Part shown: positions 21,604-35,406 of the stretch, piece after piece
Layout of the letters: each line of letters opens with the position of its first letter
Numbering within the stretch: the stretch's first letter is position 1
From: a bacterium
Lineage (GTDB): Bacteria; Bacteroidota; Bacteroidia; NS11-12g; UBA955
NCBI GenBank assembly: GCA_029945665.1
Contig: JAQSCZ010000015.1
Span: 1-49,792, forward strand
Reading direction: 5' to 3'
Length of the DNA: 49,792 nucleotides
Made by a program: the position numbers and the translations under genes
The notes under the pieces: generated by a model
Seen by the model: the letters and a program-made list of their open reading frames with translations, nothing else
The model's database searches: none
What the model was told of the DNA's origin: nothing

Positions 21604-24141
21604 ATGAACAATTCAATTTTATACTTGGTCCCTGCTCTCGGAGTACTAGGACTAATTGTGATGGCGATTAAATCTGCCTGGGTAAGTAAACAAGACGCTG
21701 GAGATAAAAACATGCAGGAACTAGCAGGCTATATTGCAGATGGTGCAATGGCTTTCTTAAAAGCAGAATGGAAAGTGTTAAGCATTTTCGTTGTATTTGC
21801 TGCTGCTTTATTGGCGTATTCAGGTACAATTCATGAAGTAAGAGGGATGGAAATTCACTCTAGTTGGATTATTTCAATCGCATTTATTATTGGGGCGGTA
21901 TTCTCTGCAACTGCTGGTTATATTGGTATGAAAGTGGCTACTAAAGCCAATGTTCGTACAACTCAAGCAGCCCGCACGAGTTTGAAACAAGCTTTGAAAG
22001 TTTCTTTTACAGGTGGTACTGTAATGGGCTTGGGTGTTGCGGGTTTAGCAATCTTAGGTTTAGGCGGTTTGTTTATTGCCTTCCTAGCAATTTTTGCCGA
22101 CTTAGGTGAGAATACAGTAAAAACAGCTATCGAAGTCTTAACCGGTTTCTCACTAGGAGCGGAGTCAATTGCATTATTTGCGCGTGTTGGCGGTGGTATC
22201 TATACCAAGGCGGCCGATGTTGGTGCTGATTTAGTGGGTAAAGTTGAAGCTGGAATTCCTGAAGACGATGTTAGAAATCCTGCAACAATTGCAGATAACG
22301 TTGGTGATAATGTAGGTGATGTTGCTGGTATGGGTGCTGATTTATTTGGTTCTTATGTTGCAACCATTCTTGCGACCATGGTATTAGGTCAAGAGGTTAC
22401 ATTTGCCGAAGGCATGCAAGATGCTTTTGGAGGTATGTCTCCAATCTTATTGCCTATGGTTATATGTGGTTTGGGTATTATTTTTTCAATAATAGGGACT
22501 TGGTTTGTAACGATTAAGGATGATAAATCAAATGTTCAAAATGCTTTAAATTTGGGTAACTGGATTTCAATGGCTATAACTGTTATTGCTTCTTATTTTA
22601 TTGTTATGTGGATGTTACCAGAAGGTGATATTGTTTTGCGTAGCGTTACTTTTACAAAAATGGGCGTGTTTATGGCAATTTTAGTTGGTACAGTGGTAGG
22701 TGCTATTATGAGTATCGTTACTGAATATTACACAGCAATGGGTAAAGGACCAGTATTGTCAATTATTCAACAATCTTCTACTGGCCACGCCACTAACATT
22801 ATTGGTGGTTTAGCAGTAGGTATGAAATCAACTGTTATTCCTATTTTAACATTAGCAGCTGGTATTATGGGTTCATATTACTTCGCAGGCTTATATGGAG
22901 TTGCAATCGCAGCAGCTGGTATGATGGCAACAACAGCTATGCAATTGGCGATTGATGCATTTGGTCCGATAGCCGATAACGCGGGTGGTATTGCTGAAAT
23001 GAGTCAATTGCCTCCTGAAGTTCGTGAGCGTACAGATAATTTAGATGCCGTTGGTAACACAACTGCCGCTACAGGTAAAGGATTCGCTATCGCTTCAGCT
23101 GCATTAACCTCATTGGCTTTATTTGCAGCCTTCGTAGGTATTGCTGGTATCGATGCCATTGATATTTATAAAGCGCCAGTTTTGGCTGGTTTATTTGTAG
23201 GTGGAATGATTCCATTTATTTTCTCAGCATTGTGTATTCAAGCAGTTGGTAAAGCAGCGATGGATATGGTTCAAGAAGTACGTCGTCAATTCCGCGAAAT
23301 ACCAGGAATTATGGAATACAAAGCAAAACCTGAATATGAAAAATGTGTAGCCATATCAACCAAAGCGTCTATCCGTGAAATGATGATGCCAGGAGCCATT
23401 GCCTTAATTACCCCTGTAATTGTAGGTTTCGTTTTCGGACCTGAAGTATTGGGTGGTTTGTTAGCTGGTGTAACTGTATCAGGTGTGTTAATGGGTATTT
23501 TTCAATCTAACGCAGGTGGTGCTTGGGACAACGCAAAAAAATCATTCGAAAAAGGTGTATTGATTAATGGAGAAATGTTCTACAAAAAATCTGAACCACA
23601 TAAAGCATCAGTTACTGGTGATACAGTAGGTGATCCATTTAAAGATACTTCTGGGCCTTCTATGAATATCTTGATTAAATTAATGAGTATCGTTTCATTG
23701 GTAATTGCACCATATATTTCTGTAGGTGGTGGGAATTTAAATCCAATGGGCGACGATTGCTGCAAAGAGCAAATGGAAATGGCTTGTTGCAACGATATGG
23801 ATAGCACCTCTCACATGAGCGGTAAATGCGATATGCGTGAATGTGCTAACATGACTAAAGAGCAATGTGCTAAAATGTGCGATAGCCTTGGTTGTGATTC
23901 AACAGAGAAAGAAATGTGCATGAGTATGTACGATGCAGATGGTAAATTTATAGGTATGGCTAAAGGCGGTGCTTGTTGCAAAGGGATGGATGCAGACCAT
24001 TGCAAAATGGATAAAGACAAATGTGCCAAAGGTGATGCTTGTTGTAAAAATAAAGCTGCTATGGGACATGGTCATCAAGGTTGTGAAGGCGAAAAAGCCG
24101 GTGCATCAGCTCCTAAAGCATGTTGCAAAGACAAGAAATAA
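21604..24141 (+). CDS. hppA: membrane-bound ion-pumping pyrophosphatase with Cys-rich tail
   Basis: Hydrolyses pyrophosphate and pumps H+ and/or Na+ across the inner membrane. Motifs include [17 protein letters not shown] (DX7KXE), [20 protein letters not shown] and the [10 protein letters not shown] site, whose Ala marks the K+-dependent class. The last membrane helix ends near residue 716 ([14 protein letters not shown]). Known family members end about here. This one adds about 125 residues holding 19 cysteines by my count, many as CC pairs ([34 protein letters not shown]), plus Met and His. C-termini of M-PPases face the exterior, so the tail is probably periplasmic and metal-binding. Whether it pumps Na+ or H+ is not decided. 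Confidence 0.95.
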
Positions 24142-24377: not shown

Positions 24378-24605
24378 ATGGATATTCAGGTAGAAAAAAG
24401 CAAGTTGATTGAATGGCTAACTGCTGTTAAAGACAAGAACATCATTGAAAAGTTGAAATTTTTTAAAGAGAATTTGTCTGATATTGAAGATTGGTGGGAG
24501 ATAATTTCTGAGGCAGAAAAGATGTCCATAGACCGCGGGATACAAGATATTAAGGAAGGTAAGGTATTGACCCATGCCGAAGTAATGAAAAAATATGGCA
24601 GATGA
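24378..24605 (+). CDS. probable antitoxin of a type II pair
   Basis: A 75-residue acidic, helical protein that overlaps the following RelE/ParE-like toxin gene by 11 bases, the typical antitoxin-first order. Its C-terminus SIDRGIQDIKEGKVLTHAEV, then MKKYG, is the kind of toxin-wrapping tail found in many antitoxins paired with ParE-fold toxins. The N-terminal half (KSKLIEWLTAVKDKNIIEKL) has no classic ribbon-helix-helix or AbrB signature that I can identify. The call therefore rests mainly on context, length and the tail. Confidence 0.7.
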   Translation: MDIQVEKSKLIEWLTAVKDKNIIEKLKFFKENLSDIEDWWEIISEAEKMSIDRGIQDIKEGKVLTHAEVMKKYGR

Positions 24606-24897
24606 ACCAGAGATTTTCTGGACTGCCGAAGCCAATCGAAATTTAGATCAGATTATTCTTTACCTTAAAACGGAATGGACTGTCAAGGAAATTCAAAAAT
24701 TCATTCAAAAATTAAATAAAGCTGTTTTATTGATATCAAAACGACCAGAATTATTCCGTTTAACAAATCACAAAGATCAATTGAGAAAATGTGTTTTAAG
24801 TAAACATACAAGTATTTTTTACAAAGAAACAAACTCAAAGATATATATTGTTTCCTTGTTTGATAATAGACAAGATCCAAAGAAAATGGAGCACTAG
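24595..24897 (+). CDS. RelE/ParE-superfamily toxin
   Basis: A 100-residue protein of the ParE/RelE fold. It has the N-terminal strand and helix IFWTAEANRNLDQIILYLKT, a second helix EIQKFIQKLNKAVLLISKRP and the C-terminal sheet KCVLSKHTSIFYKETNSKIY, then IVSLFDNRQDPKKM, with the FDNRQDP end typical of ParE-like toxins. ParE members poison gyrase and RelE members cut ribosome-bound mRNA; which applies is not decidable here. Start ATG at 24595 lies inside the antitoxin gene. Confidence 0.82.
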   Translation: MADEPEIFWTAEANRNLDQIILYLKTEWTVKEIQKFIQKLNKAVLLISKRPELFRLTNHKDQLRKCVLSKHTSIFYKETNSKIYIVSLFDNRQDPKKMEH

Positions 24898-26255: not shown

Positions 26256-26283
26256 TAATAGTGGATATATTTGTCCACTATTA
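26256..26283. promoter_or_regulatory. palindromic operator, 10-8-10 inverted repeat
   Basis: taatagtgga, an 8-base spacer (tatatttg) and tccactatta form a perfect 10-bp inverted repeat. The spacer contains TTTG (26270-26273), usable as a -33 element of the promoter whose -7 box is at 26295-26302. A repressor bound here would block the promoter. The obvious candidate is the Rrf2 protein encoded directly downstream. Confidence 0.7.
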
Positions 26284-26294
26284 AAATAAATACT

Positions 26295-26302
26295 TATCTT
26301 TG
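26295..26302 (+). promoter_or_regulatory. -7 box (TATCTTTG) of the rrf2 operon
   Basis: TATCTTTG is followed by CACC, with TTTG 21 bases upstream. A second small inverted repeat, ttatct/agataa (26294-26299 and 26307-26312), overlaps the box and the likely transcription start. The ATG is 18 bases downstream. Confidence 0.75.
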
Positions 26303-26320
26303 CACCAGATAAAATAACAA

Positions 26321-26755
26321 ATGTTCTCAAAAGCATGCGAATATGGTATTAGGGCAACAATCTACATTGCTGAACAATCACAAAATGACAAAAAGGTGAG
26401 TTTGAAAGAAGTGGCTCAGGCCATTGAATCGCCCGAAGCTTATACCTCGAAAATACTTCAAAAACTTTCACATAACAAAATCATAAATACCAATAAAGGT
26501 CCTACTGGCGGATTTTCGATAGAAAAACGGGTATTGGATAGCTTAAACCTAAGTAATATTGTTTTCGCAATAGACGGTGACAGTATGTACAATGGTTGTG
26601 GTTTGGGATTGAAACAATGCAATGCGAAAATGCCTTGCCCTGTTCATAATCAATTTAAAGAAATTAGAGACCAACTTAAATACATGCTTGAAACTACAAC
26701 TATAAAATCATTAACAGTTGGCTTGGCAAATGGATTAACATTTTTGAAGCGGTAA
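26321..26755 (+). CDS. Rrf2-family Fe-S transcriptional regulator
   Basis: A 144-residue regulator. The winged helix-turn-helix lies at about residues 1-75 (MFSKACEYGIRATIYIAEQ, VSLKEVAQAIESPEAYTSKI, GPTGGFSIEKR). The sensing loop holds three cysteines (GCGLGLKQCNAKMPCPVH), the Rrf2 pattern that ligates a 2Fe-2S or 4Fe-4S cluster in NsrR and IscR. NsrR-type members repress NO-detoxification genes until NO destroys the cluster. The location at the head of a cluster of haem, di-iron and NO-linked genes, behind a palindrome overlapping its own promoter, suggests an NsrR-like autoregulated switch. The exact ligand sensed is inferred. Confidence 0.88.
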   Translation: MFSKACEYGIRATIYIAEQSQNDKKVSLKEVAQAIESPEAYTSKILQKLSHNKIINTNKGPTGGFSIEKRVLDSLNLSNIVFAIDGDSMYNGCGLGLKQCNAKMPCPVHNQFKEIRDQLKYMLETTTIKSLTVGLANGLTFLKR

Positions 26756-26802
26756 TAACAATTAACAACGTAGTGACAAATTTTATCCAATATCATTAAA
26801 TT

Positions 26803-28551
26803 ATGGATCCAAAAAATATACTTAGCGAATGGGGAATTATCATTACATTGATTCTCATTATTATTCCAATAGTGGTGGGGGCAATCATCATTATTATAAA
26901 AGCAAACGCTTCTATAACTATTTATCAGAAAAGAAAGGAATTAAAAAAGTTTATTGAGCATTTAAGGGAACTCAGTCCTGAAGAATCAGATAGACTAAAG
27001 CAGAGAAAAAAAGAACTTGAATTTACACTGTCAAATAATGAGTTAGCAGGAGAAACGGCTCCGATAGATAGCAAAGGTCTGATAAATAATATCAATGAGG
27101 TAGCAGCGCTTCGTTTTATTGAACAAAAGAAAAAAAGCCAACCACGACCATATATTGAGCCAGATTTAACCAAACTAATTTTATGGTACATTGGTTGCGC
27201 TGCATTTTGGTTGTTGTTTGGTACGACAATAGGTGAATACATAGGAATAAAATTTGTAGCTCCTGATGTTGACCATTACAGTTGGTTGAGTTTCGGCAGA
27301 TTAAGACCTGTTCATACGAATGCTGTTTTTTGGGGCTGGGCATCCTTAGCGATGATGGGCTTGGCTTATTATGTTGTTCCTAGGGTAAGTAATGGGCCTA
27401 TTGCGAGTGTGAAAACGGGTTATTATTCACTTATTCTGATTAATGCAGCAGTTGTATTTGGAAGTATATGTTTAATGGCTGGAATTAATAATGGTGGTGG
27501 TGAGTATAGAGAATATATTTGGCCGGTAATGGCACTCTTTGGCATTGGTGTATTCATATCATTGAGTAATTTTTTGAAAACCATCAGTAATCGAACCACC
27601 AAAGAAATTTATGTTTCCAACTGGTACATTATTTCTGCCATGATGTTTTTATTAGTAATTGCAGTAGTTGCTTATTTTCCCAGCTGGCAAACAGGATTAG
27701 GAGAAACAATTGTTCAGGGATACTATATGCATCAAGGTGTCGGTATGTGGTTTATGCTTTTTAATCTTGGCTTGATGTATTATTTTTTACCTCAGCAACT
27801 CAACAAACCCATTTACTCTTACAGCTTAGGAATCTTAGCTTTTTGGGCACAAATTCTATTCTATACACTTATAGGAACACATCATTTTATTTTCAGTGCC
27901 ATTCCTTGGTGGCTGCAAACCATTGCCATTGTTGGAAGTGTTGGGATGATAATTCCTGTAGTTGCCGGAACAACAAACTTTCTAATGACTTTTAAAGGGT
28001 CGTGGAATAAAATTTCTGGTAGCTATACCCTTCCGTTTTACCTAATAGGTATTATTTTTTATTTTACAGGTTCGATGCAGGGTACAGCAGAGGCCTTCCG
28101 TTTTACAAACCTGGTTTGGCATTTCACCGATTTTACAGTCGCTCATTCTCACTTAACGATGTACGGTATTATTACATTTATGCTGTGGGGCTTTATTTAC
28201 ACTATTGTGCCGAGATTAACAGGAAGAGAACCATCCCAAATTACTGTAGGGGCACATTTTTGGTTGGCACTTATCGGCTTGTTATTTTATACCGTTCCTT
28301 TAATGTATGGCTCTACACTTAGAGGATTAATGTGGATCGACGGAAAGCCATTTATTGAAAGTGTGGAACTGATGGCCCCTTACTGGCTATGGCGTGCTAT
28401 CGGGGGGTCTTTAATGTGGATTTCCCACCTATTATTTGCTTATAATTTTTATGTAATGGTGCGAAAAAAGGAAACAATTGAAATTCCAATATCTGCCATA
28501 GATATATTAAGAGCAAAAGCTGAATTAGATTTAAAAGAAACAATCAAATAA
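26803..28551 (+). CDS. cbb3-type haem-copper oxidase subunit I (CcoN-like)
   Basis: A 582-residue polytopic membrane protein of the haem-copper superfamily, C-family. Ligand histidines are visible in RPVHTNAVFWGW (low-spin haem), YYMHQGVGMW (CuB), GTHHFIFSAIPWW (CuB pair) and VAHSHLTMYG (both haems). The residue 44 positions after the first CuB His is Tyr, in QILFYTLIG, the site of the cross-linked tyrosine of cbb3 oxidases. The Glu found four residues after this His in NO reductases is absent (Gly). This favours O2 reduction. About 125 N-terminal residues (a membrane helix, then a charged coiled coil, EESDRLKQRKKELEF) are additional to the core. CcoO-like protein follows after 10 bases. Confidence 0.85.
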   Translation: MDPKNILSEWGIIITLILIIIPIVVGAIIIIIKANASITIYQKRKELKKFIEHLRELSPEESDRLKQRKKELEFTLSNNELAGETAPIDSKGLINNINEVAALRFIEQKKKSQPRPYIEPDLTKLILWYIGCAAFWLLFGTTIGEYIGIKFVAPDVDHYSWLSFGRLRPVHTNAVFWGWASLAMMGLAYYVVPRVSNGPIASVKTGYYSLILINAAVVFGSICLMAGINNGGGEYREYIWPVMALFGIGVFISLSNFLKTISNRTTKEIYVSNWYIISAMMFLLVIAVVAYFPSWQTGLGETIVQGYYMHQGVGMWFMLFNLGLMYYFLPQQLNKPIYSYSLGILAFWAQILFYTLIGTHHFIFSAIPWWLQTIAIVGSVGMIIPVVAGTTNFLMTFKGSWNKISGSYTLPFYLIGIIFYFTGSMQGTAEAFRFTNLVWHFTDFTVAHSHLTMYGIITFMLWGFIYTIVPRLTGREPSQITVGAHFWLALIGLLFYTVPLMYGSTLRGLMWIDGKPFIESVELMAPYWLWRAIGGSLMWISHLLFAYNFYVMVRKKETIEIPISAIDILRAKAELDLKETIK

Positions 28552-28561
28552 AATAAACGCA

Positions 28562-29569
28562 ATGGAATTTTTCGATAATCATAAAAAATTATTCCCGACA
28601 GCATTGGGATTATTTGTTGGACTAACCATTATAGTTGCGATTCTACCTGCAATTAACAATCAGGAGAACAATGCACCGCTACCTGCATCAATACCCTTAA
28701 CAGCCGATGAAATAGCTGGTAAATTAAGCTTTATTTCAAATGGTTGTGTTGGTTGTCATACCCAGCAAGTTCGAAATATTGACATGGATAAAATGTGGGG
28801 CAATAGGCCTGGAATAGCGGCTGATTATGCGGCCATAACCCGGACTGATTTTTGGAGAAATACGGCCACCCTTATGGGTACTGAACGAACGGGACCAGAC
28901 CTTACCAATATAGGAAACCGGCAGTCAAGCCTCGCATGGAATTTGTTACATTTATATCAGCCAAGGGCGGTAATTGCAAAATCAATCATGCCTGCTTATC
29001 AATGGTTGTTTATTGAGAAAGATAGCCTAGAAAAGGGTGATGTTGAGGTAATTATTCCAGATAAATACAAAAAAGGGATTACTGGAAAAATAATCGCTAA
29101 GAAGGAAGCCATTCAGTTGGTTGCTTATCTTCAAAGTTTAAAACAAATACCACTACCTGATGGGAAAATACTGCCAGATTTTTTATATAAAAAGGAAATA
29201 AATCCCAAAGCAGTTAATACCAATACATCAAGCCTACCTGACGGTGCTCTGCTTTATGCAAAAAATTGCCAAAGTTGCCACCAAGAAAATGGTGAAGGTT
29301 TAAAAGGTGCTTTTCCTCCGCTAAAAGGAAGCCCAATTGTATTGGGTGAAAACCTTGAATTATATGTTACAATTATCATGCAAGGTTATGATGCAAGGCC
29401 TGAGTATTCTGTCATGAATGCAGTAGGAATAGCCAATAATTTAACTCCTGAAGAAGTGACTGCCATCATTAATCACGAAAAAACAAGCTGGGGCAATGCT
29501 GCCAAACCTGTAACGCCTGAAGAAGTAAAGAAAATTATGGATTTCATTAACCTAACTGCCAAAAAATAG
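28562..29569 (+). CDS. CcoO-like cytochrome c fused to a second cytochrome c domain
   Basis: A 335-residue protein with one N-terminal membrane helix (LFPTALGLFVGLTIIVAILP). Domain 1 is CcoO/FixO-like: NGCVGCHTQQVRN haem site, then TERTGPDLTNIGNR and the axial-Met region LYQPRAVIAKSIMPAYQWL. Domain 2 (about 220-300) has KNCQSCHQENGEG, a class I cytochrome c like those of CcoP, with MQGYDARPEYSVM as the likely Met loop. So one chain does the work of CcoO plus one haem of CcoP. No separate CcoP or CcoQ gene is present in the operon. It passes electrons to the adjacent subunit I. Confidence 0.85.
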   Translation: MEFFDNHKKLFPTALGLFVGLTIIVAILPAINNQENNAPLPASIPLTADEIAGKLSFISNGCVGCHTQQVRNIDMDKMWGNRPGIAADYAAITRTDFWRNTATLMGTERTGPDLTNIGNRQSSLAWNLLHLYQPRAVIAKSIMPAYQWLFIEKDSLEKGDVEVIIPDKYKKGITGKIIAKKEAIQLVAYLQSLKQIPLPDGKILPDFLYKKEINPKAVNTNTSSLPDGALLYAKNCQSCHQENGEGLKGAFPPLKGSPIVLGENLELYVTIIMQGYDARPEYSVMNAVGIANNLTPEEVTAIINHEKTSWGNAAKPVTPEEVKKIMDFINLTAKK

Positions 29570-29573
29570 AACA

Positions 29574-29834
29574 ATGAAACTAAAAATATTACCAATTCTT
29601 TTGCTCTTTTTGTCAGTACAATTTGTATCCGCTTGTCCTGCATGTGAAAAACAACAACCAAAAATTACGCAGGGATTAACCCATGGAGCAGGACCTCAAA
29701 GTAATTGGGATTGGGTGATCATTGGCATTATTACTTTCATCACACTTTTGACCTTTGTATTGTCATTAAAATATTTGATCAAACCAAATGAAAATAATGA
29801 AGACCATATTAAACAATTAATTTTAAGCAACTAA
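29574..29834 (+). CDS. small membrane protein with CPAC motif
   Basis: An 86-residue protein not assignable to a named family. It has a signal-like N-terminus (LPILLLFLSVQFVSA), directly followed by CPACEKQQ, which could be a redox or metal-binding pair. It then has a single membrane helix (WVIIGIITFITLLTFVLSLKY) and a short acidic tail. Position 4 bases after the CcoO-like gene suggests an accessory or assembly subunit of this oxidase. Confidence 0.6.
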   Translation: MKLKILPILLLFLSVQFVSACPACEKQQPKITQGLTHGAGPQSNWDWVIIGIITFITLLTFVLSLKYLIKPNENNEDHIKQLILSN

Positions 29835-29838
29835 TAAG

Positions 29839-30243
29839 ATGATAGAAGATAAAAGCAAGATAACTCTATTTGTTGATGACGAGTTAAAACCAATTGCAGA
29901 ATTGGCTGCGCCGGTGCAATTTGAGCTGGATACCCGTAAACTGACAGACGGAGAGCATGTGCTTAAACTAATAAGTAAATCGCCAAAGGGAAGAGAGGGT
30001 ATAAAAAAAATTAAATTTACTGTAAGAAACGGTCCTTCTATTGCAGTTGAAGGTTTAACCGAAAATAGCATTGTAGATGGCGTAATTCCTCTAATGATTC
30101 ACGCTTATGATAAAGGAAATCAAAAGAAATTTGTAATCGAGGGAAGTGAAACCCCTCAAAGCGTGCCAAGTTGGTTATGGATTTTGCTGGTCGTTTTTTT
30201 TGGATGGGCTGCATATTATATCATTACAAACTATAGTATTTAA
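29839..30243 (+). CDS. tail-anchored Ig-like accessory protein of the oxidase cluster
   Basis: A 134-residue protein with no signal peptide. Residues 1-105 are beta-rich with an Ig/Big-like strand pattern (QFELDTRKLTDGEHVLKLIS, REGIKKIKFTVRNGP). A single C-terminal membrane helix (SWLWILLVVFFGWAAYYII) is followed by a few residues. It lies 4 bases after the CPAC protein. The size and neighbourhood suggest a small oxidase-associated subunit or a CcoH-like assembly factor, but I see no homology that proves it. Confidence 0.55.
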   Translation: MIEDKSKITLFVDDELKPIAELAAPVQFELDTRKLTDGEHVLKLISKSPKGREGIKKIKFTVRNGPSIAVEGLTENSIVDGVIPLMIHAYDKGNQKKFVIEGSETPQSVPSWLWILLVVFFGWAAYYIITNYSI

Positions 30244-30254
30244 AAAATGGGAAG

Positions 30255-30644
30255 ATGAAAAATGATATAAAAAACATAGCGGATATTGAGTTGTTAGTGG
30301 ATAGTTTTTATAAAAAAGTACGCCAAAACGATTTACTGAAAGATATTTTTAATCATATCATTCAAGATAAATGGCCCCAGCATCTTGAAAAAATGGTACG
30401 TTTTTGGCAAACTGTTGCTTTAGAAGAGCATACCTATCAAGGTAGTCCATTTCTGCCTCACGCCAGATTACCCGTTTCTAAGGAACATTTTGATATCTGG
30501 TTAAACCTTTTTGACACAACAGTTGATGAATTGTTTATCGGTGAAAAAGCCACAAGAGTTAAATGGCAGGGAGCGAGAATGGCAGAATTATTTAATTCCA
30601 AAATAGAGTATTACAAAAGCAATTCAGCAATACCCTTAATATGA
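30255..30644 (+). CDS. group III truncated haemoglobin
   Basis: A 129-residue globin. The pattern ELLVDSFYKKVRQNDLLKDI, FNHIIQDKWPQHLEKMVRFW, then VALEEHTYQGSPFLPHARLP and HFDIWLNLFDTTVDELF is that of group III (P-type) truncated haemoglobins. The proximal His lies in SKEHFDIWL. Such globins bind O2 and NO and are linked to microaerobic growth and NO defence in other bacteria. It sits 11 bases after the Ig-like protein gene and overlaps the next gene by 4 bases (ATGA). Confidence 0.88.
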   Translation: MKNDIKNIADIELLVDSFYKKVRQNDLLKDIFNHIIQDKWPQHLEKMVRFWQTVALEEHTYQGSPFLPHARLPVSKEHFDIWLNLFDTTVDELFIGEKATRVKWQGARMAELFNSKIEYYKSNSAIPLI

Positions 30645-31111
30645 CAACAGGAAAATACCCTATCGCAATAGCGGCCGCCTTTATATGGATAGGCTTTGTT
30701 TGTGCTATCAGTTTTATGGAAGCCTGGTTGAAATTTCGAGCACCTGGCGTTTCGATGTCTATCGGTATAGGTATTGGTAGATTAGTTTTTAGCGCGCTCA
30801 ATAAAGTGGAATGGGTGATGATTCTTTTCATTACAATAAATTTTCTTTTAAAAAAGGAATTTATTTCAGGGGGTACAAGCTTGTTATTTGCCATACTGCT
30901 TCTCTTACTTATTTTACAAACTTTTTGGCTCTTGCCCGCATTAGATGAAAGGGCAGAACTACAAATAATATCTCGGGTAGTGGTCACATCCAACCTTCAT
31001 TTTTACTATGTCGGAATGGAAGTTATCAAAGTTACTTTATTAGCCATTTTTGGAATTTTATTATTAAAAAAAAATCAATATGAAATCAGAGGAAATTATA
31101 AAGGATATTGA
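30641..31111 (+). CDS. four-helix integral membrane protein
   Basis: A 156-residue protein with about four membrane helices (YPIAIAAAFIWIGFVCAISF, VEWVMILFITINFLL, SLLFAILLLLLILQTFWLL, VIKVTLLAIFGILLL). A conserved-looking loop FMEAWLKFRAPGVSMSIGIG lies between the first two. I cannot name a family with certainty. It overlaps the globin gene by 4 bases and its end overlaps the next start by 32 bases, so it is firmly within the operon. Confidence 0.6.
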   Translation: MTTGKYPIAIAAAFIWIGFVCAISFMEAWLKFRAPGVSMSIGIGIGRLVFSALNKVEWVMILFITINFLLKKEFISGGTSLLFAILLLLLILQTFWLLPALDERAELQIISRVVVTSNLHFYYVGMEVIKVTLLAIFGILLLKKNQYEIRGNYKGY

Positions 31112-31991
31112 ACATAAATATCAGCAATTGGGAGAAAACCCGGAAACTTATTTAAAAGGATTACTTCATGCTAAACCAATTAATTATTGGGATTATGTGG
31201 AGGTGGATACCCTACTCTCACTTCAAAAGCCACGAACGAATTTCAAAGACGAGGAAATCTTTATTATGTATCATCAGGTAACAGAATTGGTGCTTAAAAT
31301 GATGGTACACGAAATTAAACAATTGATTTATGAACCTTTTGACGAGAACATTTGGATAGATAAACTCAATCGACTTAACAGATACACCGCCATGCTTATA
31401 ACCTCATTTGATGTGATGAAATCTGGAATGAACTACGAAGATTACAATATATTTAGAAGCACGCTAACTCCAGCCAGTGGTTTTCAATCAGCACAATTTA
31501 GATTGATTGAAATATATTGTACCCGATTAGAAAATCTTATCAATGAAAAAGGGAAACAAAGGCTTGGAAACAACCCAACTACAGAAGAATATTTTGAACA
31601 AATCTATTGGACAGATGCAGGTTTAAACAGGGAAACCGGAAAAAAAACATTAACACTTCGTCAATTTGAAGATAAATATTTAGATCGCTTTATTGCTTTA
31701 GCAAACAAAACAAAAGGAAAAACATTAGAGGATAAAGTTTTGAAAGCTGACAATTGTTCGGATAAGTTAATTGAAAAATTAAAAGAATTTGATCATTTAT
31801 ATAATGTAGCATGGCCATTGGTGCACCTGCAAACAGCCCAGCATTACTTAGATAAAAAAGGGGAAAACAAAGCGGCTACCGGAGGTAGTGAATGGAAAAA
31901 ATACCTGCATCCCCAATTTCAACACCGTAAATTTTTCCCGCATCTATGGAATTCGGAGGAAATAGCCAACTGGGGAATTAACAATTTATAA
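31080..31991 (+). CDS. tryptophan 2,3-dioxygenase-like haem protein
   Basis: A 303-residue protein of the TDO family. Typical motifs are YVEVDTLLSLQKP, EIFIMYHQVTELVLKMMVHE (distal His) and the substrate-site signature FRSTLTPASGFQSAQFR. The C-terminal haem-ligand region WPLVHLQTAQHYL, then ATGGSEWKKYL, departs from the WRLxHxRxAxRYL form I expect of true Bacteroidota TDO; two or three arginines are missing. It may therefore be a paralogue with another task. Authentic TDO opens the indole ring of tryptophan for the kynurenine pathway, yet no kynurenine gene is near. Placement beside a globin, RIC and hemerythrin suggests a gas-binding role. The start overlaps the preceding gene. Confidence 0.82.
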   Translation: MKSEEIIKDIEHKYQQLGENPETYLKGLLHAKPINYWDYVEVDTLLSLQKPRTNFKDEEIFIMYHQVTELVLKMMVHEIKQLIYEPFDENIWIDKLNRLNRYTAMLITSFDVMKSGMNYEDYNIFRSTLTPASGFQSAQFRLIEIYCTRLENLINEKGKQRLGNNPTTEEYFEQIYWTDAGLNRETGKKTLTLRQFEDKYLDRFIALANKTKGKTLEDKVLKADNCSDKLIEKLKEFDHLYNVAWPLVHLQTAQHYLDKKGENKAATGGSEWKKYLHPQFQHRKFFPHLWNSEEIANWGINNL

Positions 31992-32002
31992 AAGAAAACA
32001 AA

Positions 32003-32731
32003 ATGAATATTCAAGAAAATCAAATTATCGGGAAATTAGTAGCTAAAGACTATCGGAGTGCATCTGTATTCAAAAAACACGGAATAGATTTTTGTTGCCA
32101 AGGCAACAGAACTATTTCAGATGCTTGTACAAAACAACATATTAATCCTCAAACTGTATTGAATGATTTGGAACAGGCCATGCAATTTCAAACCGATCAA
32201 ACAACCATATTTACGGCATGGCCTTTAGACTTATTGGCTGATTATATTGAAAAAAAACATCATCGGTTTGTCGTAGAAAAATCTATGGAAATTAAGCCAT
32301 ATTTGGATAAAATTTGCACGGTTCACGGAGCACGTCACCCCGAACTATTTGAAATCAGCAAAGAATTCAATGCGGCCGCTGCCGAATTAGCGGAGCATAT
32401 GAAAAAGGAAGAACTAAATATATTTCCATTTGTGCGTCAATTGGTCAAAGCAAAATACGAAGGTTTAAAAATGGAGGCTTCGCATTTTGGGTCAATTCAG
32501 AATCCAATTCAAATCATGATGAACGAGCACACAATCGAAGGAGACCGTTTTAAATTGATTGTCGACCTAAGCAATAATTATACTCCTCCGGCAGATGCTT
32601 GCAATACTTACAAGGTAACATTTGCTTTGCTTAAAGATTTTGAAGAAGATTTACATTTACATATTCATTTGGAAAATAATATTTTGTTTCCTAAGTCAAT
32701 AGATTTAGAAAAAGAATTAAATGCCGGGTAA
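32003..32731 (+). CDS. ric: RIC/YtfE-type iron-sulfur cluster repair protein
   Basis: A 242-residue di-iron protein that repairs Fe-S clusters damaged by NO or oxidants. The N-terminal ScdA domain (about 1-60) has the SVFKKHGIDFCCQGNRTI double-cysteine motif. The hemerythrin-like domain (about 70-235) holds the iron ligands in ADYIEKKHHRFV, CTVHGARHPEL, AAELAEHMKKEELNIFP, IQIMMNEHTIEGD and DLHLHIHLENNILFP. Family length is normal. It lies 11 bases after the TDO-like gene and overlaps the DUF488 gene by 11 bases. Regulation by the Rrf2 gene at the head of the cluster is likely. Confidence 0.93.
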   Translation: MNIQENQIIGKLVAKDYRSASVFKKHGIDFCCQGNRTISDACTKQHINPQTVLNDLEQAMQFQTDQTTIFTAWPLDLLADYIEKKHHRFVVEKSMEIKPYLDKICTVHGARHPELFEISKEFNAAAAELAEHMKKEELNIFPFVRQLVKAKYEGLKMEASHFGSIQNPIQIMMNEHTIEGDRFKLIVDLSNNYTPPADACNTYKVTFALLKDFEEDLHLHIHLENNILFPKSIDLEKELNAG

Positions 32732-33071
32732 TATTAATGTCCATATGGCAAGGTTATACCATTCTCCTTTTTTACATGGTAGTTATCGTGTTTTAGTTGA
32801 AAGCCTGTGGCCAAAGAGTATTAAAAAAAGTGACTTGGAGTTTGATGAATGGGATAAGGAGATTCCACCATCGACAAAACGCTGGAAGCATTCTGATCGC
32901 GAAGCAGAGTGGTTGAAGGAATTTGCAAAACAATATGAAGAAGAATTGAAATTCAAGACAGCCCAACTAAACCGAATTATTGAAATCGCAAAGGAAAAAG
33001 AAGTTACGTTATTATATACAGCGATGGATCTTGAAATAAATTACACGGTTATTCTAAAAAAATATTATTAA
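32721..33071 (+). CDS. DUF488 family protein
   Basis: A 116-residue protein of DUF488 (YeaO type). The motif YRVLVESLWPKSIKKSDLEF, then EWDKEIPPSTKRWK, and the end VTLLYTAMDLEINYTVIL match the family pattern. The function is not established. Its start ATG at 32721 lies within the last codons of ric, so coupling is likely. MARLYH, eight residues on, is an alternative start. Confidence 0.75.
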   Translation: MPGNINVHMARLYHSPFLHGSYRVLVESLWPKSIKKSDLEFDEWDKEIPPSTKRWKHSDREAEWLKEFAKQYEEELKFKTAQLNRIIEIAKEKEVTLLYTAMDLEINYTVILKKYY

Positions 33072-33077
33072 AAAAGC

Positions 33078-33851
33078 ATGACAACCCATTCTTATGATAC
33101 CGTCAGTGAAGCTATAAATGATCTCGCAAATAGGGGCTACACATCAGATCTCAAACTATTAGTAGGTGAAGAATGTTTAATCTGTAACAAAACTGAGACC
33201 AAGCTTTCGCCTAATGAATTTGAAATTGATGAAACGTATCGTTTTGAGGGGAATTCAGACCCTGGTGATGAAATGATCGTATTTGCAGTTTCATCTTTAA
33301 TGTACAGTATTAAAGGAATTGTTGTAAATGCCTATGGCGCTTATTCAGATACAACTACAGATATGCTCGTTGCGCTCCTTCATAAGCATATTAATGCTAA
33401 ACCGATAAAACGGAATACATTATTTCACCCACTAAGCCGCGAGCACCATCATGCATTGTTACTCTGTTGGAAAATACGGTTAGGAATTAAAAAGAATGTG
33501 GAAATAGGGCGTATAAAAAGGTATTTAGATTGGTTCTACCAAAAATATTTACTCCCTCATTTTAAGGCTGAAGAACTCTTTTTATTCCCTATTCTTGGAG
33601 ATGAGAACAAGCTGATTAAAAAAGCGCTTTCAGAACATCAAAGCATAAAAATATTATTTAAAGAAAATACGGTCTCAATCAAGCATTTTACCCAAATTGA
33701 AAAAGAGTTGCATAGCCACATTCGTTTTGAAGAACGGGTTTTATTCAATGAAATTCAAAGGATAGCTACTTTAAAACAATTAGAGGCAATGTATATCGGC
33801 CATTCTGAGGAGAAATTTTGTGAGAACTTGTCTGATCCATTTTGGGAATAA
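33078..33851 (+). CDS. fusion of a small Bacteroidota domain with a hemerythrin domain
   Basis: A 257-residue protein. Residues about 1-105 (YDTVSEAINDLANRGYTSDL, FEIDETYRFEGNSDPGDEMI, KGIVVNAYGAYSD) match a small stand-alone family in Bacteroidota often mislabelled phosphoribosylpyrophosphate synthetase. Residues about 115-257 form a hemerythrin-like four-helix bundle with ligands in LSREHHHALLL, LLPHFKAEELFLFP, LSEHQSIK and LHSHIRFEERVLF. This pairing puts a possible O2/NO di-iron sensor next to an uncharacterised domain. It lies 6 bases after the DUF488 gene. Confidence 0.78.
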   Translation: MTTHSYDTVSEAINDLANRGYTSDLKLLVGEECLICNKTETKLSPNEFEIDETYRFEGNSDPGDEMIVFAVSSLMYSIKGIVVNAYGAYSDTTTDMLVALLHKHINAKPIKRNTLFHPLSREHHHALLLCWKIRLGIKKNVEIGRIKRYLDWFYQKYLLPHFKAEELFLFPILGDENKLIKKALSEHQSIKILFKENTVSIKHFTQIEKELHSHIRFEERVLFNEIQRIATLKQLEAMYIGHSEEKFCENLSDPFWE

Positions 33852-34171
33852 TGGGCAATCCTATTCATTTTACCGTTATTGAGAATAATTCAAAACATGA
33901 GATACAAACTTATGTTGGTGAATACAGAAACTTAATGTGTTTAATAATTGATAAATTTTATTTCGATTGTTTTGGCGAATGCGGTGGCATGGGAAGATGT
34001 GCAACCTGTGTCATTAAAATCAGTGGGCTATCCGGAAATTCAATTAGAAAAGAAAGAAACGAACCTGCTACATTGTCAAAAATGGGCCTCGAGGATGCCA
34101 ATATTCGTCTTTCTTGTCAATTATTAATTACCCAAGATCTAGATAGTACGAAAATAGAAATTTTGGTGTAA
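33851..34171 (+). CDS. 2Fe-2S ferredoxin
   Basis: About 106 residues. The ATG at 33851 (MGNPIHFTV) overlaps the preceding stop as TAATG and is preferred over a TTG nine bases upstream. A plant-type 2Fe-2S motif is present as CFGECGGMGRCATCV, with the last ligand in LSCQLLI. It would carry single electrons in the cytoplasm, plausibly to the di-iron or haem proteins encoded upstream. It is the last gene of the cluster. Confidence 0.88.
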   Translation: MGNPIHFTVIENNSKHEIQTYVGEYRNLMCLIIDKFYFDCFGECGGMGRCATCVIKISGLSGNSIRKERNEPATLSKMGLEDANIRLSCQLLITQDLDSTKIEILV

Positions 34172-34452: not shown

Positions 34453-35406
34453 CTAAAGCAGCTCTTTCACAATATCATCATTGCTCAACCCTTCGGCCTC
34501 AGCTTTGTAATTTTTTACCAAACGATGTCTCAATACATTGTATGCCATCGCTCGCACATCCTCAATATCTGGAGAAAGTTTGCCATTCATCAAGGCGTGG
34601 CATTTAGCTCCCAATACTAAAAACTGACCAGCACGTGGTCCTGCACCATAACTAATGTATTCATTTACCTTGGCTGTAGCCATAGCGGTTTGCGGTCTTG
34701 TTTTGCTAACCAATGTTACGGCATAGCTCAATACATTCTCGGCAATGGGCGCTTTTCTTACTAAATCTTGAAAGGCCAGTATCTCTTGAGAATTAATTAA
34801 TTTATTGGTTTGTACCTTTATATTCGAAGTCGTGTTTCTTACAATGTTTATTTCTTCTTCAAAACTCGGATAGGTTAGTGTAAGATTCAACATAAAACGG
34901 TCTAACTGTGCTTCTGGCAAAGGATAGGTTCCTTCTTGCTCAATAGGATTCTGAGTGGCTAAAACAAAAAATGGATGGTCAAGTTGATGGGACTTCCCGC
35001 CCACAGTAACACTTCGTTCTTGCATTGCTTCTAACAAGGCAGATTGGGTCTTAGGTGGTGTCCTGTTAATTTCATCTGCCAAAATAATATTCGCAAATAA
35101 GGGTCCACGTATAAATTTAAATTGACGGGTTTCGTCTAATATTTCATTACCAGTAATGTCACCTGGCATCAAATCGGGGGTGAATTGTATTCTATTAAAT
35201 TCTAAATCCAAGACATCAGAAATAGTTTTAATTAATAAAGTTTTTGCCAATCCAGGAACCCCAACTAACAAAGCGTGGCTATTGCAAAACAAGGTTGTTA
35301 ATACGCCATTTACGGCGTCATTCTGACCAACAATGACTTTGCCAATCTCATCCTGAATTTGTTTGTAGGAATGGGTAAATTTTTCTGCTGTTGCAATATC
35401 GCTCAT
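34453..35406 (-). CDS. MoxR-family AAA+ ATPase
   Basis: A 317-residue AAA+ ATPase. Walker A is GVPGLAKTLLIKT (about 49-61), Walker B ILADEINRTPPKTQSALLEA, and sensor 1 FFVLATQNPIEQEGTYPLPE. MoxR ATPases act as chaperones that mature or insert metal cofactors, often with VWA-domain partners; none is in the window. It is the last gene of a minus-strand unit with three periplasmic chaperones, 8 bases after the SurA-like gene. Confidence 0.93.
   Translation of the reverse strand: MSDIATAEKFTHSYKQIQDEIGKVIVGQNDAVNGVLTTLFCNSHALLVGVPGLAKTLLIKTISDVLDLEFNRIQFTPDLMPGDITGNEILDETRQFKFIRGPLFANIILADEINRTPPKTQSALLEAMQERSVTVGGKSHQLDHPFFVLATQNPIEQEGTYPLPEAQLDRFMLNLTLTYPSFEEEINIVRNTTSNIKVQTNKLINSQEILAFQDLVRKAPIAENVLSYAVTLVSKTRPQTAMATAKVNEYISYGAGPRAGQFLVLGAKCHALMNGKLSPDIEDVRAMAYNVLRHRLVKNYKAEAEGLSNDDIVKELL

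Follow-up and report, generated by a model that had tools for sequence, protein, structure and literature searches.

A divergent cbb3-like oxidase at the centre of a candidate nitric oxide-responsive operon in Bacteroidota

What is an oxidase of the cbb3 kind doing behind an Rrf2-type regulator and ahead of a train of globin, hemerythrin and Fe-S proteins? This question is raised by a 49,792-nucleotide stretch of a Bacteroidota genome (contig JAQSCZ010000015.1 of assembly GCA_029945665.1, lineage UBA955; the whole stretch is called the window hereafter), in which twelve open reading frames (ORFs) follow one another on the plus strand from 26321 to 34171. An original prediction, made from the letters without database searches, had described these genes as a single regulated system for consuming or sensing O2 or nitric oxide (NO) and for repairing Fe-S damage, and all twelve were found in the order and with the families that it had named (Table 1), its start at 26256 also taking in an operator palindrome. 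The gaps between successive genes are 47, 10, 4, 4, 11, -4, -32, 11, -11, 6 and -10 bp, that is, four overlaps and a largest gap of 47 bp. We propose, with moderate confidence, that the locus would be an NO-responsive, NsrR-like operon for an unusual cousin of the cbb3 oxidase, one that keeps respiration running or destroys NO under NO exposure.

Whether the cluster is a unit can be judged from its relatives. A single search across bacterial genomes found 80 orthologous loci, with a catalytic subunit identity of 66-84%, and every ORF in their flanks was clustered without prior labels. The recurring families were the catalytic subunit (COX1, 80 of the 80 loci), CcoO (78), Rrf2 (69), the Ig-like protein (69) and the small protein with a CPAC motif (66), followed by the globin (50), hemerythrin HHE (38), RIC (30) and the ferredoxin (26); the four-helix membrane protein (4TM, 15), the tryptophan-2,3-dioxygenase (TDO)-like protein (10) and DUF488 (9) were the rarest of the cluster families. 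Only three further families occurred in 7-12 loci: two of 270 aa and 301 aa, frequently encoded on the other strand, and an ORF of 80 aa. Since the same-strand runs around the oxidase agree with this clustering, the locus is a modular unit and no chance assembly, consisting of a five-gene core (Rrf2, COX1, CcoO-cytochrome c, CPAC and Ig-like), a globin in most cases, and beyond these an assortment of NO and Fe-S proteins that differs between loci. The gene-order check proposed with the original prediction supports one regulated system, whose genes are kept together across relatives behind a conserved operator. Of the twelve-gene unit, the Rrf2/oxidase part stands as near-invariant and the other seven genes turn out to be frequent but variable, and the oxidase-like complex, regarded earlier as the unusual member, is instead the centre of the system.

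The cluster occurs in 14 of 395 genomes of a phylum sample and in 8 of 198 genomes of a class sample, the window's own genome included in both, while the window's family has a full copy in 4 of 70 genomes and a fragment at a contig end in one more; each of the four genomes with a full copy also encodes subunit I of an aa3-type and of an ordinary cbb3 oxidase. Distant relatives, with 56-62% identity in the oxidase, belong to different families and classes within the phylum, and the COX1, CcoO, CPAC-like and Ig-like genes are mostly kept around them. The patchy occurrence, together with about 83% identity to loci placed in other families and orders, suggests that the cluster has spread horizontally in Bacteroidota. 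No published description of the operon turned up in a literature search whose coverage of subscription papers was thin.

What kind of oxidase lies at the core? The catalytic subunit is clearly a haem-copper oxidase (PF00115) and closest to CcoN, but identity to cbb3 is only about 32%, and its 247 bits against the ccoN model TIGR00780, below half of the cut-off of 583, place it outside that equivalog. With residue equivalence taken from an alignment with 3mk7, 88 near and 8 distant members were compared with 26 ordinary CcoN proteins of the same bacterial family. The haem b/b3 and CuB histidines and the cross-link residue, H171, H310, H360, H361, H448, H450 and Y354 (the counterpart of Y251 in the Pseudomonas stutzeri enzyme), are invariant in all three groups (88/88, 8/8 and 26/26), the E122/E125 glutamate pair of cbb3 enzymes is invariant in the near and distant members, and the proton-path residues Y241, N293, T297 and Y321 are retained. 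Many other positions are fixed differently from ordinary CcoN: E323 is replaced by Q in all members, S244 by G and H247 by A (cbb3 numbering), and a new glutamate, E430, is fixed in the family. S244 and H247 lie, in Vibrio numbering, in the C-family proton path. In the tree the members form a separate clade next to that of ordinary cbb3 enzymes, with long branches and backbone support that is not decisive. Judged by these sequence features, the oxidase is a distinct C-family clade and not an ordinary cbb3. The near group also has an N-terminal extension of about 120 aa (26803-27160 in the window), comprising a hydrophobic helix and a charged stretch, which is absent from the distant group.

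Known NO reductases (NORs) offer no better home for this enzyme. It shares with cNOR and qNOR a relationship to the C-family, an NO-linked gene context and a cytochrome c domain. However, in comparison with four qNOR sequences, HQGVGM stands in place of the HxWVEG motif with the helix VI FeB glutamate, the second active-site glutamate is absent, and the tyrosine that NORs have lost is present; membership was therefore rejected. Membership in eNOR, sNOR, gNOR, nNOR or bNOR was likewise rejected on the C-family match, the haem c subunit and the retained tyrosine, as these enzymes are characterized by B-family descent, a cupredoxin subunit II and replacement of the tyrosine (PMC8756737, PMC11388526). 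The cross-link tyrosine is kept by oxygen reductases, and eNOR has glutamine there (PMC8756737). By such structure-function rules, the enzyme should reduce O2.

The partner subunits are consistent with a modified CcoNOQP complex. The CcoO-like protein carries a second cytochrome c, unlike that of cbb3 enzymes, and two CxxCH motifs are found in 76 of 78 relatives. The CPAC protein has no family match, and 61 of the 66 near-group proteins carry the CxxC that typifies them; because the distant counterparts, which have no CxxC, keep one helix and a C-terminal PGE...HIK...IL, we place it as a CcoQ-like subunit. In the distant loci L143-L146 and L148-L150, the membrane helix of the Ig-like protein is followed by a cytochrome c domain with a single CxxCH, giving a cytoplasmic Ig domain, a membrane helix and a periplasmic cytochrome c, whereas in the window's group the protein keeps the anchor and the cytochrome is absent. 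There is no CcoP_N match, but the fusion suggests that the Ig-like protein is in effect a CcoP-like third subunit, differing from cbb3 in its Ig domain. Its AlphaFold model is of low confidence (predicted local distance difference test, pLDDT, 68) and was not used. We infer a complex of four subunits. Near the oxidase of three distant loci there are also short membrane proteins of about 150-160 aa (L150:5433-5885, L148:3512-3964 and L143:4335-5187), which resemble the beginning of haem-copper subunit I and, weakly, NnrS; they are possibly half-size haem proteins.

How would such a complex be controlled? The Rrf2 cluster motif (with x5 or x6 spacing) is conserved in 69 of 70 relatives, and the 9-8-9 dyad in front of the regulator gene takes in the apparent upstream element (TTTG) of a probable promoter whose second element, TATCTTTG, fits the Bacteroidota consensus TAnnTTTG. 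An exact 9-8-9 dyad is present in 15 of 61 upstream regions against a shuffle mean of 0.1, and a candidate operator of the same form in 42 of the 61, in two flavours, AGTGGA or AAAAGA, which track regulator residues 41-43 (YTS versus FIA), a correspondence confounded with phylogeny. In the window's genome the exact site is unique to the cluster, and no further operator of the AGTGGA flavour was found beyond it (one match with three mismatches, against five for the control).

Other targets of this type of operator come into view in the relatives. A scan of 20 genomes with the AAAAGA flavour, allowing at most one mismatch, gave 17 matches against 1 for a control pattern, 11 of them at the cluster and six elsewhere. 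Of the latter, one has a divergent nosZ operon on one side and an Rrf2-RIC pair on the other (L174); one precedes a hemerythrin-Rrf2-RIC run adjoining nosZLDFY and a NorCB-like pair (L175), and another a similar run in L179; and one precedes an Rrf2-flavohemoglobin pair (L181), whose Rrf2 is 54% identical to that of the window. In genome G505, which also has the cluster, an exact AATAAAAGA-N8-TCTTTTATT lies upstream of the subunit I gene of an ordinary aa3-type oxidase (L182:4719-6793), making co-regulation of the main oxidase possible, and a match inside a gene of genome G513 (L176) was taken as probable chance. In addition, the operons of L084 and L121 include a flavohemoglobin gene, nos genes lie directly upstream on the same strand in L154 and L121, and DUF1858-DUF2249, a CcoN/NnrS-like protein, a Crp-type regulator and RIC occur around the oxidase in distant loci. 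The NorCB-like pairs (L175:5723-7443 and L179:2647-4385) adjoin hemerythrin, RIC and nos genes, and the NorB-like protein of L175 has GAWNQMIYG in place of HxWVEG, the FeB histidine and glutamate apparently missing.

Because the same operator and regulator type are found at flavohemoglobin, RIC, hemerythrin and nos loci elsewhere, NO is the best-supported candidate for the signal, and we consider it quite probable that NO controls the operon; the choice between O2 and NO left by the original prediction is thereby tipped towards NO. NsrR and related NO regulons of other bacteria include Hmp, RIC/dnrN, nnrS, nos and globin-reductase genes (PMC1274295), and a terminal oxidase is also among their targets, since the alternative oxidase (AOX) of Vibrio fischeri is NO-resistant and under NsrR control (PMC5156696). 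The gene classes around the operator and the oxidase match those of NsrR-type regulons of other phyla, and an Rrf2 Fe-S regulator, a local operator and the apparent target functions are shared with them (PMC1274295, PMC5156696); the type of oxidase and the Cys3-His motif of the regulator differ.

We picture the locus as a single operon, with a local NsrR-like Rrf2 repressor that would sit on the promoter-overlapping operator until NO damages its Fe-S cluster and repression is lifted. Induction would then yield a four-subunit membrane complex and a soluble set of NO and Fe-S proteins. The complex would combine a cbb3-like catalytic subunit (haem b, haem b3 and CuB) and a CcoO with a second cytochrome c with the CcoQ-like protein and the Ig-like membrane protein that matches CcoP minus its cytochrome, and its electrons would come from the periplasmic pool of cytochrome c. 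In the soluble set, the group III globin, the ferredoxin, the hemerythrin, RIC and the variable accessory proteins would bind or oxidise NO and mend Fe-S centres. With the cell's ordinary aa3 and cbb3 oxidases blocked by NO, the oxidase would most likely continue to reduce O2 and remove some NO on the side. We regard O2 reduction in the presence of NO as its most likely activity and a new NO reductase as the main rival. The gene content and its conservation, the operator, the subunit relationships, the active-site residues and the links to hmp, nos and RIC loci are visible in the sequences; from them we infer the NO signal, the repression, the physical unity of the complex and its substrate.

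Several points weigh against an NO-responsive respiratory operon. The regulator scores 32 bits against the NCBIfam NsrR equivalog NF008240 (cut-off 182) and falls outside that family; the spacing of the 26-bp 9-8-9 dyad is unlike that of known NsrR sites, which are 23 bp long. The operators that link the system to hmp and nos are of the AAAAGA flavour and belong to relatives, the AGTGGA flavour having been scanned in the window's genome only. The loss of two polar residues of the C-family proton path would be odd for an energy-conserving O2 reductase. Although nirK (over the cut-off) is found in 16 of 58 cluster genomes versus 12 of 190 genomes without the cluster (Fisher p 4e-5) and nosZ in 38 of 58 versus 63 of 190 (p 1e-5), which favours the NO reading, this enrichment ignores phylogeny and lifestyle; the 58 genomes comprise 50 reached through the loci and 8 from the class sample, with at least one genome shared. 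Finally, no nirK, nosZ or qNOR match was found in the window's genome, hence the operon there would serve defence or respiration under NO from outside, not denitrification.

In the strongest competing view, the complex would be a dedicated NO reductase, evolved within the C-family independently of cNOR and qNOR and with its tyrosine kept, turning NO into N2O for NosZ to remove where NosZ is present. Its NO-type partners, the operator held in common with nos, hmp and RIC loci, the nos operon directly upstream in two loci and the enrichment with nosZ and nirK all speak for it, as do the loss of S244, H247 and E323 and the gain of Glu430. Purified cbb3 enzymes already reduce NO, far more slowly than true NORs (PMC8780969), and qNOR, present in 10 of 198 class genomes, is found in none of the 8 with the cluster, a number too small for significance. 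Against these stand the invariant cross-linked tyrosine of an oxygen reductase, the absence of NorB-type glutamates, and the many cluster genomes without nirK, that of the window among them. On balance we regard a dedicated NO reductase as a tentative alternative, and it is likewise doubtful that the complex is an unrecognised tyrosine-retaining C-family NO reductase of Bacteroidota.

A second possibility moves the signal away from NO: the Rrf2 protein may sense O2, redox state or Fe-S supply, as IscR or RsrR do, and the operon would then serve micro-oxic respiration and Fe-S maintenance. The cluster motif is closer to IscR-type than to NsrR-type ligands, and globin, hemerythrin and cbb3 enzymes alike are generally known to bind O2. 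But the operator and regulator type recur at flavohemoglobin and nos-RIC loci, DUF2249 and NnrS-like genes accompany the distant oxidases, and RIC is present in 30 of 80 loci, making a role unrelated to NO quite improbable. That the locus is a loose assortment of adjacent stress genes with several promoters, as the differing accessory genes might suggest, is very improbable in view of gaps that do not exceed 47 bp, a single conserved operator ahead of the first gene and an oxidase core 56-60% identical across families and classes of the phylum in spite of differing flanks.

The accessory proteins vary in how closely they fit known families. In the globin the haem pocket residues Y19, H43, H69 and W82 are invariant in 51 of 51 sequences, and the alignment to 2ig3 from Campylobacter keeps the B10 Tyr, E7 His, F8 His and G8 Trp of group III truncated globins; the gene differs from that system in lying inside an oxidase operon. 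RIC combines ScdA_N with hemerythrin and exceeds the TIGR03652 cut-off of 204.7 bits, and the ferredoxin cysteines are conserved among relatives. The TDO-like protein retains the distal and proximal haem histidines and the TGGS motif, but with 100 bits against TIGR03036 (cut-off 390.7) it is not a tryptophan 2,3-dioxygenase equivalog. The window's genome (G000) has three genes of this family (C34:32451, C1:39315 and C15:31179), only one of them in the operon. The 4TM protein has no family match, and although its AlphaFold model is good (pLDDT 87), no meaningful fold match was obtained (best E 0.8).

Table 1. Coordinates of the operator, promoter and twelve genes of the cluster in the window.
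Feature	Position	Strand	Evidence
Operator	26257..26282		perfect dyad AATAGTGGA-N8-TCCACTATT, 64 bp 5' of the Rrf2 ATG
Probable Bacteroidota promoter	26270..26302	+	TTTG at 26270-26273; TATCTTTG at 26295-26302, fits TAnnTTTG; predicted from sequence
Rrf2-type regulator	26321..26755	+	PF02082, 79 bits; C-x6-C-x5-C-x2-H cluster motif
Catalytic subunit I, divergent C-family haem-copper oxidase	26803..28551	+	PF00115, 278 bits; residue tables; tree
CcoO-like subunit fused to class I cytochrome c	28562..29569	+	PF02433, 92 bits; PF00034, 55 bits; two CxxCH
Small secreted or transmembrane protein with ACPAC (CPAC)	29574..29834	+	CcoQ-like position; conserved C-terminal PxE..HIK..IL
Ig-like protein, cytoplasmic domain and C-terminal transmembrane anchor	29839..30243	+	probable CcoP-like subunit, without cytochrome c
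Group III truncated globin	30255..30644	+	best PDB match 2ig3, E 3.8e-14
Four-helix membrane protein (4TM)	30641..31111	+	no known family
Tryptophan-2,3-dioxygenase-like haem protein	31080..31991	+	PF03301, 90 bits; PDB alignments
RIC / YtfE / ScdA di-iron Fe-S repair protein	32003..32731	+	TIGR03652, 227.6 bits
DUF488-N3i protein	32721..33071	+	PF22752, 77 bits
N-terminal domain of about 100 aa fused to hemerythrin HHE	33078..33851	+	PF01814, 37 bits
[2Fe-2S] ferredoxin	33842..34171	+	Cys pattern C47/C53/C56/C92; PF00111 weak, 19 bits, just under cut-off

The next gene after the cluster (34453-35406) is on the opposite strand. A NorQ-like link to the adjoining MoxR ATPase was considered and set aside, since that gene is convergent with the cluster and no family of about 317 aa is among the most conserved around the 80 loci. 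Scans for sigma-70 promoters and terminators gave background-level numbers only. Elsewhere in the window, a membrane pyrophosphatase (ORF 21604-24141; PF03030, 893 bits) has a C-terminal tail of about 130 aa (23700-24141), very rich in Cys, Met, Asp and Lys and outside the profile, which stops at residue 701 of 845, and a two-gene pair at 24378-24897 encodes an antitoxin-like protein of 75 aa followed by a ParE_toxin match (33 bits).

Bacteroidota make up a large share of the nosZ-bearing, N2O-removing bacteria, and 9% of Bacteroidota are reported to have nir and nosZ but no known nor (PMC12569097). NO handling in this phylum is poorly known, and the widespread operon, in which a divergent cbb3-like oxidase is joined by regulators and repair proteins of the NO type, is a concrete candidate. 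Its enzyme would be either a respiratory oxidase that tolerates NO, comparable to the alternative oxidase under NsrR control, or a new NO reductase, which surveys of genes would score as an ordinary oxidase. If the latter were true, a tyrosine-retaining NO reductase would supply part of the missing nor step in Bacteroidota with nir and nosZ, and would break the rule that loss of this tyrosine marks NO reductases. The operator motif, moreover, may serve as a handle for mapping NO regulons across the Bacteroidota.

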